A stretch of 64,000 nucleotides of DNA from contig CAIUOU010000159.1 in assembly GCA_903900845.1 (NCBI GenBank), positions 1 to 64,000 on the forward strand. Reading direction: 5' to 3'. The notes beneath the pieces are model-generated. The model was not told where the DNA came from. It worked only from the letters and a program-made list of their open reading frames with translations, and did no database searches. Positions 25,036 to 30,558 of the stretch are shown piece after piece (positions within the stretch are counted from its first letter, which is position 1; each line of letters starts with the position of its first letter). This DNA is from an uncultured Opitutia bacterium. Lineage in GTDB: Bacteria; Verrucomicrobiota; Verrucomicrobiia; Opitutales; Opitutaceae. Position numbers and translations under genes: made by a program.

Positions 25036-25443
25036 TCAGACCTCGACGGGAGGAGCCGTTGCCTCCGGCGCGCATCTCCGTGCGAACAACCAGCCTGGAC
25101 CTGAATCCTGCGAAGGCGGTGGACGCCAGATCGCGGAGCTCAAGGCGGCGTCGGTTTCACGCGCTGGGGAATGGAAGTCGCCCGGCTCCGGCGGATGTCC
25201 TGAAAGGGCAGCGTCCAGCGCCTGCCGAGAGTCATCGGAGCGTTCCCGAGCCCAGACCGGATCGTGTTCGTCCCCGACTTCGGCGTGATGATGTTCCTCC
25301 GGATGTTCGCCCGTGGTCGAAGCCGTGTGATGATGGTGGGTGTGCTCCGGCAACCAGCCCGCCGCCTCCAGCCCCTCGTGCCAAGCGCAGCAGCACCAGC
25401 TCAGAACGATGAGCCCGGCTAGAGTAAATCGGCCTGGGAGCAT
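25036..25443 (-). CDS. Small exported His-rich protein of the metal cluster
   Basis: Not a family I recognise. The 135-residue protein opens with a hydrophobic export segment containing three adjacent Cys (17-19). Clusters of His follow: 34, 36-39, 47, 51-53 and 60, with acidic residues between. The rest is low complexity. The start is 9 bases after the CNNM-like gene on the same strand and the stop is about 110 bases before czcC, so a shared operon is likely. Metal buffering or delivery to the pump is inferred from composition and place only. A lipoprotein is possible (Cys 17). Confidence 0.65.
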   Translation of the reverse strand: MLPGRFTLAGLIVLSWCCCAWHEGLEAAGWLPEHTHHHHTASTTGEHPEEHHHAEVGDEHDPVWARERSDDSRQALDAALSGHPPEPGDFHSPARETDAALSSAIWRPPPSQDSGPGWLFARRCAPEATAPPVEV

Positions 25444-26917: not shown

Positions 26918-27316
26918 TCACGGGGCGCCTTTTTCGACGGACGCCCCCGAGGCGCGCCAGCCGGCGATGCCCGGGGAGTAGTGCCTCACGTTCGTGTAGC
27001 CGAGCGCCGTGACGGCCTTGGCGGCCGTCCGGTACGCCTGGCACTTTTCATTACCGCAATAGGCCACCACGAGCGCGCTCTTGTCCTTGGGCAGCGCCGC
27101 GGGGAGGTCTCCGCGCAGGGTCGCGTAGTCGATCGCCCCGGGTATGCGACCGTTGCGGTAGGAGGAGGTGCCGTTGACGTCGATGAGGGTCACTTTCTTC
27201 GCGGCCATCGCGGCGGTGAGCTCGGCGTGGCTGATCGCGGGAAACTCGTCCTGGCCGGCGGCGATCATGGAGGAAACCAAGCCGAGGCAGCAGAGAAACG
27301 CGGTCACGATTTTCAT
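26918..27316 (-). CDS. Exported single-domain rhodanese
   Basis: Single-domain sulfurtransferase-fold protein of 132 residues with a signal peptide (about 1-20, FLCCLGLVSSMIAAGQD). The rhodanese domain runs from FPAISHAELTAAMAAKKVTLIDVN to the end. The active-site loop starts with Cys in VAYCGNEKCQAYRTAA; a second Cys in the loop is less common. Export means it works in the periplasm. It leads the minus-strand run toward the CNNM and efflux genes (76 bases to the next start), so sulfur or metal handling is likely, but the substrate is unknown. Confidence 0.85.
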   Translation of the reverse strand: MKIVTAFLCCLGLVSSMIAAGQDEFPAISHAELTAAMAAKKVTLIDVNGTSSYRNGRIPGAIDYATLRGDLPAALPKDKSALVVAYCGNEKCQAYRTAAKAVTALGYTNVRHYSPGIAGWRASGASVEKGAP

Positions 27317-27427: not shown

Positions 27428-28033
27428 GTGACCCTCTTCGCCTTTCACGCCGTCGTAGTTGTTCTGGGCATCCTGAGCATGGGCTTCCAGTTGCTGGCCT
27501 CCCGGCTGCTGAACCCCCATTTCGGCTCCTCCATTGTCGTCTGGGCGTGGCTGATCTCGACGTTCCTGGCGGCGTTTTCGGCCGGATCGATGATCGGCGG
27601 TTCGATCAGCAACCTCCCGGCCGCTTCCCGCCGGAAGGCGGCGGGGATCGGGGCCGTGGTCGCCGTCGTCACGCTGGCGCTGGTCGCCGTCTTCGGTCGC
27701 CCGCTGCTCGCGGCGATCGAGACGACCTTCACGGACGTCAGCGTCGCGATCGCCGTGTCCTGCGTGGGCATCTTTTTCCTGCCGGTCACCGCGCTGTCCA
27801 CGTTCGGACCGCAATGCGTGCAGTTCCTTGCGTCCCGTGGAACGCCGCCCGGCAAGGCATCCGGCGTCGTCTATGGCGTGAGCACCCTGGGCAACATCGC
27901 CGGCGTGATGCTCACCGCCTTCGTGCTCATTCCCAATCTCCGTGTTTCCACGCTGCTGCAGCTTTGGCTGGCGGTCGCCGTGGTGAGCCTCGTGGTCCTG
28001 CTCCGCCTGCTCCGCTCCGCCCCTGCCGAATGA
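27428..28033 (+). CDS. Membrane protein matching the N-terminal half of fused spermidine-synthase proteins
   Basis: The 201-residue protein is almost entirely membrane spanning, with about six helices. The opening (FHAVVVVLGILSMGFQLLAS then RLLNPHFGSSIVVWAWLIST) has the wording of the membrane half found in fused membrane/spermidine-synthase proteins. Start is taken at GTG 27428; in-frame GTG codons at 27383 and 27386 are possible. The stop overlaps the next gene by four bases (ATGA), so the two halves are separate but coupled. Function unknown; a transporter or scaffold for the synthase-like partner is inferred. Confidence 0.75.
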   Translation: MTLFAFHAVVVVLGILSMGFQLLASRLLNPHFGSSIVVWAWLISTFLAAFSAGSMIGGSISNLPAASRRKAAGIGAVVAVVTLALVAVFGRPLLAAIETTFTDVSVAIAVSCVGIFFLPVTALSTFGPQCVQFLASRGTPPGKASGVVYGVSTLGNIAGVMLTAFVLIPNLRVSTLLQLWLAVAVVSLVVLLRLLRSAPAE

Positions 28034-28950
28034 ACTCCCCGATCCGTTTTCTGGTTTCCGTCGCCGGCGCGGTGTTTGCCGCGGCCGCGGTTTCCGCGCA
28101 GGATTCCGTCGAGCGCTTCGACACCGCGTACAACAGCATCACGCTCCAGCGTTCCGGCGACATCGTGGAACTGCGGGCGCGGTACCGTGGCAACGACACG
28201 CTGGAATCGGCCGTCGACCTTTCCGACCCGCTCAAGCTGGTCGTGGCCTACACCCGGTCGCTCTACGGCGCGCTGTTCATCGAGCCCAACCCCAGGCGCG
28301 TCCTCATGGTCGGGCTCGGCGGCGCCGGATTTCACCGGCTTTTCGCGGCGGCTTATCCCGACACCCTTCTGCACACGGTCGAACTCGACCCGATGGTCAA
28401 CGAGCTCAGCCGCTCGCGGATGAAGTTCGCGCCCACCGCCAACACACCGGTCACCATCATGGATGGCCGCATGTTCATCAAACGCGACCGCGAGCGCTGG
28501 GACTGGATTGTCCTGGACGCCTTCCGCGGCGACTCCGTGCCTCCGCACCTGAAGACCGAGGAATTCTACCGCGAGTGCGCCGCGCGCCTCACCGACCGCG
28601 GCGTGTTTGTCAGCAACCTGCACGCGACGACCGAGCTCTACTACTCCGACCTCCGCACGATGCAGGCGGTCTTCCCGCAGGTCGTGCTGCTGGGCGTGGA
28701 CGGCCGCGGCAACGTGATCGCGCTCGCCGTGAAGTACTCGTCGCCGTCGATCACCGATCCCTCGAAGTGGCCGGATCCGGCTTCCCTGCAAAAGCCCGTG
28801 TTCAAAGGCCGGCTGGACCTTGCGCAGATCAAGGGAGAGGTGATGCCGTTCCCGACCGCCCGCGTGAAGCGGGCGCGGGTGCTCACCGACGATTTCGCCC
28901 CCGTCGAGTTCCTGACAACGGTTAAGGACAACAACACCCGCAACGAGTGA
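28030..28950 (+). CDS. Exported spermidine-synthase-like (aminopropyltransferase-fold) protein
   Basis: The 306-residue protein resembles the soluble half of fused spermidine-synthase proteins. It has the nucleotide-fold glycine loop VLMVGLGGAGFHRLF (about 94-108), the acidic strand end TVELDPMVNELSR, and WIVLDAFRGDSVPPHLKTEEFY at the position of the catalytic Asp loop. What is odd is a clean signal peptide at the N-terminus (about 1-25, VAGAVFAAAAVSAQDS), which predicts location outside the cytoplasm. The glycine loop differs from the GGGDG of true synthases, so it may not make spermidine. It is coupled to the membrane gene before it. Confidence 0.75.
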   Translation: MNSPIRFLVSVAGAVFAAAAVSAQDSVERFDTAYNSITLQRSGDIVELRARYRGNDTLESAVDLSDPLKLVVAYTRSLYGALFIEPNPRRVLMVGLGGAGFHRLFAAAYPDTLLHTVELDPMVNELSRSRMKFAPTANTPVTIMDGRMFIKRDRERWDWIVLDAFRGDSVPPHLKTEEFYRECAARLTDRGVFVSNLHATTELYYSDLRTMQAVFPQVVLLGVDGRGNVIALAVKYSSPSITDPSKWPDPASLQKPVFKGRLDLAQIKGEVMPFPTARVKRARVLTDDFAPVEFLTTVKDNNTRNE

Positions 28951-29037
28951 ACCAGCGGATTGCCCCCGGGGGCGATCCGGGGGAAGTCCGGCTTGCCCCG
29001 ACCCGGGGGATTCGCCGCGATGGGGGAAATTTCCCGC

Positions 29038-30558
<1,521 letters not shown>

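Follow-up and report, generated by a model that had tools for sequence, protein, structure and literature searches.

The nearest characterised counterpart found for the locus described here is a fungal enzyme, NHMT (AN4663), a single-chain, seven-transmembrane N-terminal histidine methyltransferase (PMC10349129). As described there, a 7TM domain is joined to a spermidine-synthase-like methyltransferase domain, the protein resides in the ER and acts on secreted LPMOs, and removal of the membrane part abolishes methylation. NHMT is described as being without the acid of the GxG(D/E)G loop and as keeping a SAM-binding Glu, and its 7TM region was called unique to filamentous fungi by its authors (PMC10349129). 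Human METTL13 (PDB 5wcj), also cited there, is the N-terminal methyltransferase of eEF1A (PMC10349129). Another related group, the NCBIfam family NF037959 (MFS_SpdSyn), consists of single fused chains, and its name implies polyamine activity. METTL13 is cytoplasmic and has no membrane partner; SAM-using enzymes in bacteria are assumed to act inside the cell. No description of an exported bacterial member of the spermidine-synthase-like class was found in full-text searches of the open-access literature.

The window (i.e. the whole stretch of 64,000 nucleotides that was analysed) contains two overlapping genes, A and B, whose products correspond to a membrane part and a spermidine-synthase-like domain, respectively (Table 1). 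By the published description, NHMT shares this combination, although its ER location does not specify the side of the membrane on which its enzyme domain lies, and B resembles NHMT in its residues, having a spermidine-synthase-like domain, no loop acid (G98) and the SAM-binding Glu (E118). NHMT differs in being one chain, fungal and active on LPMOs (PMC10349129). LPMO_10, the family searched for this substrate class, was found in none of 57 genomes and in one of 14 controls; LPMO methylation as in fungi was rejected, with LPMO_10 not being the substrate.

Table 1. Positions of the A/B genes, their sequence features and the flanking genes in the window
Feature	Position	Strand	Remarks
Rhodanese	26918..27316	-	Signal-peptide-like N-terminus; Pfam Rhodanese 6.9e-14; transcribed away from A, with about 110 bases between
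Gene A	27428..28033	+	GTG 27428 to TGA 28033; 201 aa; six membrane helices and half-MFS fold (predicted); homology to the N-terminal half of the fused MFS/spermidine-synthase chains
ATGA overlap	28030..28033	+	4 bases shared by the A stop and the B start; read from sequence
Gene B	28030..28950	+	ATG 28030 to TGA 28950; 306 aa; predicted exported spermidine-synthase-fold protein
Signal peptide of B	28030..28098	+	Predicted; residues 1-23; probable cut between VSA and QD, judged by eye
Rossmann-type catalytic domain of B	28102..28929	+	About residues 25-300; AlphaFold2 and structure alignment
Glycine loop G95-L-G-G-A-G100	28312..28329	+	G98 replaces Asp of GGGDG; alignment to 1inl
E118	28381..28383	+	31 E and 4 D among 35 sequences
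D145-G-R147 motif	28462..28470	+	35 of 35 sequences
D163-A-F	28516..28524	+	In place of speE DS(S/T)D; D and A in 35 of 35 sequences
Xylulokinase (XylB equivalog)	28960-30558	+	3' of B

The gene pair and its distribution

A split spermidine-synthase-like pair with a four-base overlap had been proposed in a first-pass annotation of this DNA, and both the coordinates and the family assignment were found to be right. Against a cut-off of 40 bits for NF037959, A alone scored 72.5 bits (profile positions 7-180 of 480) and B alone 83.9 bits (profile positions 273-480 of 480); B also matched Pfam Spermine_synth (E 7e-08). The two halves occur in the same order as in this family and the fused relatives that were aligned likewise lack the glycine-loop acid. 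The window pair differs from the family in being two genes rather than a single fused chain, and in having a predicted signal peptide where fused proteins have their seventh helix. The polyamine activity implied by the family name is not supported by the residues in the window.

The starts of both genes were examined. For A, many homologues leave no start open other than a GTG or ATG at the position equivalent to 27428; further GTGs lie just 5' of this start in the window. The N-terminus of B reads MNSPIRFLVSVAGAVFAAAAVSA followed by QDS. A start-site error had been raised previously as a possible source of a spurious signal peptide. The next ATG after 28030 falls within the enzyme domain, and an in-frame GTG at codon 15, which is not common to most orthologues, would cost the charged start and half of the hydrophobic core.

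Close matches to B (E <= 1e-50) were present in 23 of the 57 genomes searched, this one included. Of the other loci from this search, 21 have an intact B start; in 20 of these, A and B overlapped by 1-4 bases or had a 2-base gap, and in the last the gap was 17 bases. A scan of named genomes produced 55 loci, many of them on the same contigs as in the 57-genome search, so the two sets are not independent. Among 42 Opitutaceae-type loci, A was directly upstream (its end no more than 400 bases from the B domain) in 39 and about 1 kb away in one, and was not present within the examined sequence in two. The four-base overlap occurred in 30 of these 42 loci and, by a separate analysis, also in L072. 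Mean column identities of the orthologue alignments were 71% for B and 80% for A. The A/B pair is a conserved, true feature and not a broken gene.

A search for split pairs with a signal peptide in other PVC genomes had been suggested; split pairs with a signal peptide or a lipobox were found in several phyla, not only PVC. The A-B order was observed in Gemmatimonadota (L078, L079 and L082), Latescibacterota (L080) and an alphaproteobacterium (L087), and the reverse order, B-A, in Nitrospirae (L081, L085 and L086) and Desulfobulbaceae (L083). All of these split B proteins outside the Opitutaceae have a hydrophobic, export-type N-terminus. A fused protein from Syntrophorhabdaceae (L084) shares 51% identity in the enzyme half and 53% in the membrane half with the split alphaproteobacterial pair; its seventh helix occupies the place of the signal peptide of L087 and ends much like one.

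Predicted export of B and of its fused relatives

The catalytic-like half had been credited with its own signal peptide, and this was borne out by a simple signal-peptide rule that fitted 18 of 21 B orthologues. Under the same rule, fits were obtained for 197 of 10,500 shuffled copies of the B orthologues, 343 of 4,356 internal B stretches and none of 27 N-termini of the neighbouring xylulokinase. As the controls were low, chance or a start error is an unlikely source of the B signal. When a start codon was required, 47 of 53 B-like proteins fitted, the window and the fused L084 included; these 53 are the 55 scanned loci minus two sequences cut by contig ends. The six misses (L038, L051, L060, L065, L079 and L082) arose mostly from stray charges or an unclear start, and a hydrophobic stretch was still visible by eye. 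A looser search for a core within 45 residues upstream, with no start codon required, was passed by 51 of 53, a figure that includes L038 and L084, in which the chosen core is neither the signal nor the seventh helix.

The N-termini of B have a positive charge ahead of the core and ends that are SPase I-like or carry a lipobox. Ten matches to the lipobox pattern were obtained, of which six were judged to be well placed (L045, L072, L078, L079, L080 and L082) and four lay too early or within the hydrophobic core. Genomes of Opitutaceae type carry some of the well-placed lipoboxes, and genomes labelled Gemmatimonadota or Latescibacterota carry the others. On these sequence features, an extracytoplasmic location of B is likely.

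Predicted export extends beyond the split form to the fused relatives. Exactly seven hydrophobic segments were predicted in 23 of 27 fused proteins (i.e. 26 of the 29 loci L106-L134, three being not fused, plus L084; L106-L134 scored best among the loci of the 65 genomes, out of 297, that had a match). A crude positive-inside rule placed the enzyme domain outside in 24 of the 27 and inside in three (L108, L119 and L125). Given the export signals on the split forms and the outside topology of the fused relatives, export of the enzyme seems to be a general trait of the class annotated as 'fused MFS/spermidine synthase'. Two long fused relatives are encoded in the window's own genome (L135 and L136, on G000:C169 and G000:C14), with open frames of 755 and 866 codons and 15 predicted hydrophobic segments, an odd number, ahead of the enzyme domain.

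Folds, conserved residues and candidate functions

All 21 A orthologues have six hydrophobic segments with both ends predicted inside, i.e. not the twelve helices in one chain that are expected of an MFS transporter, and an excess of K/R on the N-terminal side, which is weak in the window's own A (5 versus 3 K/R). The AlphaFold2 model of A (pLDDT 95.0) superposed on one six-helix half of MFS transporters (e.g. FLVCR1/2 and G6PT), with VIA-align Z-scores of 15.6-18.0 among the 50 matches listed, all of which look like MFS transporters by title; the match to FLVCR2 had a Z of 18.0 and an rmsd of 2.9 over 185 of 201 residues. Foldseek alone gave weak E-values (best 0.009), and no solved structure matched the A family by sequence at E <= 1. 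Pfam MFS_1 matched nine of the 52 members of the A family alignment, A itself not being among them. Judged from the model, the label 'MFS' for A seems fair as a fold, at half size.

The AlphaFold2 model of B had a mean pLDDT of 88.9. Its top structural match by VIA-align was 3gjy (Z 26.6, rmsd 3.1, 249 residues), with Z-scores of up to 24.9 for other SpeE structures and of 23.9 for METTL13 in complex with SAH (5wcj; rmsd 2.0, 189 residues, model residues 70-260); METTL13 and most SpeE entries were tied in this comparison. SpeE (PDB 1inl, 2o06 and 1uir) resembles B in overall fold, including the N-terminal hairpin region, and METTL13 resembles it in a GLGGG loop and in the close superposition, although the METTL13 alignment begins only at residue 70 of B. 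Comparison of folds, made here with a predicted model, cannot by itself tell methyl from aminopropyl transfer. Searches of PDB sequences with the B family profile ranked METTL13 best (1.1e-31), ahead of 3gjy (7.3e-27) and other SpeE entries (8e-21 and weaker), whereas the window B alone ranked 3gjy first (1.5e-09), then 1inl (1.5e-08) and then METTL13 (2.8e-08), so the ranking is not one-sided. The entry 3gjy is a Corynebacterium 'probable spermidine synthase' with an Ala aligned to the loop Asp of SpeE, and its name may be wrong too.

The loop VGLGGAG had been noted as unlike GGGDG. This reading was confirmed by the alignment, in which G98 takes the place of the Asp that speE requires in the GxG(D/E)G loop, and points to a different chemistry. 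Across 35 sequences, the column of the decarboxy-SAM acid held G in 29, A in three, V in two and I in one, with D or E in none. The GGGD and DS(S/T)D motifs that set SpeE apart from B are kept in two speE-like controls (L093 and L104) as GGGD and DSTD, and the acid was present in none of 37 other aligned relatives, fused ones included; the motifs of both controls were read by eye, since the alignment places their Asp in an insert column, and L104 is speE-like by motifs only. D145, D163, P171, T176, E178 and N196 are invariant in 35 of 35 sequences. The D145-G-R147 motif is presumably the donor adenine region. We take E118 to correspond to the ribose-binding residue for a SAM-type donor (see also PMC10349129). 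By the alignment, contacts to a SAM-type donor are kept in B.

Our preferred reading, to which we give about even chances, is of A and B as two halves of one SAM-dependent transferase that is bound to the membrane, works outside the cytoplasm and is most likely a methyltransferase. From the computed gene pair, export signal, conservation, folds and lost decarboxy-SAM acid, we infer methyl transfer, SAM as the donor and a role for A. B would be exported via its signal peptide and would fold outside the cytoplasmic membrane beside A, which, as a six-helix half-MFS protein, probably docks or anchors B and, perhaps as a dimer with twelve helices, may carry SAM, SAH or the acceptor through the membrane. 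B could then bind SAM or a close relative via E118 and D145; the group it transfers would most likely be methyl, and the acceptor would be an amine on a molecule that is secreted or belongs to the membrane or the cell wall, in the manner of NHMT on secreted LPMOs. Gene linkage in both orders and the kinship of fused L084 with split L087 count in favour of a natural A/B pair. Free SAM is, to our knowledge, not known from the bacterial periplasm, which counts against an extracytoplasmic SAM-dependent transferase. Also counted against it were the three fused proteins with the domain inside, the weak charge bias of A, the three of 42 loci without an adjacent A, the absence of LPMO_10 in the genomes searched, the lack of a shared pathway in the neighbourhoods and the fact that all structures are predicted. 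A wider version is put forward tentatively, as possible but somewhat doubtful: the locus would encode an envelope methylation machine in which half-MFS proteins pass SAM out across the cytoplasmic membrane and SAH back, and the exported methyltransferase modifies secreted proteins or lipoproteins at their N-termini. This machine would be a bacterial counterpart of NHMT, and the whole 'fused MFS/spermidine synthase' class would consist of extracytoplasmic SAM enzymes under a wrong name. A conserved exported SAM-fold enzyme with half a transporter, in several phyla, would mean either a supply of SAM beyond the inner membrane or a different donor acquired by the fold there, and many 'spermidine synthase' annotations would need correcting. 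The pair raises the questions of which molecule crosses the membrane and which is modified.

The first-pass annotation had suggested a polyamine-type enzyme outside the cytoplasm; the predicted export was retained and the polyamine part was not. That B is a true aminopropyltransferase, making extracytoplasmic polyamines from decarboxy-SAM and an amine, is very unlikely, even though this would fit the spermidine-synthase fold with its high Z-scores to 3gjy and other SpeE structures, the retention of D145 and D163, and the placing of 3gjy and 1inl ahead of METTL13 with B alone as the query. The best NCBIfam match by E-value was likewise to a family named polyamine aminopropyltransferase (7.2e-39), but it reached 133 bits against a cut-off of 304, and the score against speE TIGR00417 was 40 bits against a cut-off of 249.55. 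B had no match to Spermine_synt_N at E <= 1, a domain found in one of the 57 genomes (G018), and the decarboxy-SAM position is, as described above, never acidic. The SAM decarboxylase search covered the PF02675 family, which was detected in none of the 23 B-carrying genomes, in four others of the 57 and in eight of 14 control genomes. G018 is a B carrier that has a speE-like protein without PF02675, so a missing PF02675 does not prove that decarboxy-SAM is missing. A carboxyspermidine route was considered and rejected as showing no link: nspC was above its cut-off in nine of the 57 genomes, none of them B carriers, while matches at E <= 0.001 extended to 31 of 57, among them the genome of the window. 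As the loop acid is missing, the family cut-offs were not reached and no PF02675 was found in B carriers, B is probably not a polyamine enzyme.

Other readings give B a different activity or place. As a non-catalytic exported sensor or binding protein for a nucleoside or an amine, exchanging a small molecule with A, B would accord with the half-MFS fold and strong conservation of A (80% mean column identity), with the lack of pathway context and with periplasmic SAM being unproven; this is nevertheless unlikely, as the many invariant positions across the domain, the six named above included, resemble an active site and not a binding cleft alone. Spermidine-synthase-like enzymes often act on small amines. 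B might accordingly be an exported SAM-fold enzyme for a small secreted metabolite with A as the transporter of that metabolite, which the half-MFS fold of A and the absence of a common protein substrate in the neighbourhoods examined would also suit; we rate this as decidedly unlikely, given that METTL13, the top PDB match of the family profile, and NHMT act on protein N-termini (PMC10349129). The hydrophobic N-terminus of B could instead anchor the protein in the membrane with its domain on the cytoplasmic side. Export of B is a prediction and six of 53 B-like proteins miss the start-linked rule, but the positive charge before the core, the SPase I-like or lipobox ends, the count of seven segments in most of the fused proteins (23 of 27) and the twin-arginine-type N-termini of a second family make such an anchor extremely improbable.

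Neighbouring genes and a second exported family

Gene neighbourhoods were considered as a guide to function and set aside, since xylulokinase, lgt, flavoprotein, cytochrome and transporter genes offered no common theme or pathway. A match to the xylulokinase was present in 25 of 41 related loci, whereas the rhodanese was found beside A in one of these 41, the very close L034, and is probably not part of the A/B system. A small His-rich protein (25036-25443, - strand) is encoded beside TolC-like and HlyD-like efflux genes, the names being given by reading the sequence. In two of the Nitrospirae loci, with the gene order lgt-B-A, lgt directly precedes the B homologue with overlapping ends (L085:5105-6792, Pfam LGT 1.9e-79; L086:3802-5486, by eye); this position next to B would fit a function connected with lipoproteins or the envelope. 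Close to the pair, L081 (3423-5288) and L086 (6223-8118) both encode a flavoprotein-like product (NAD_binding_8) whose N-terminus is of the RR type.

A second spermidine-synthase-like protein with predicted export is encoded in the same genome as the window (L137:5494-6360, on G000:C40). No A gene was detected beside this second family in the short loci available (L002 and L027-L030), the single match having an E of 0.3. Twin-arginine-type N-termini were present in four of the five members seen, i.e. in the versions from four sister genomes (L027-L030), which start with SRRxF. Such a start would suit the export of a folded, ligand-loaded enzyme.
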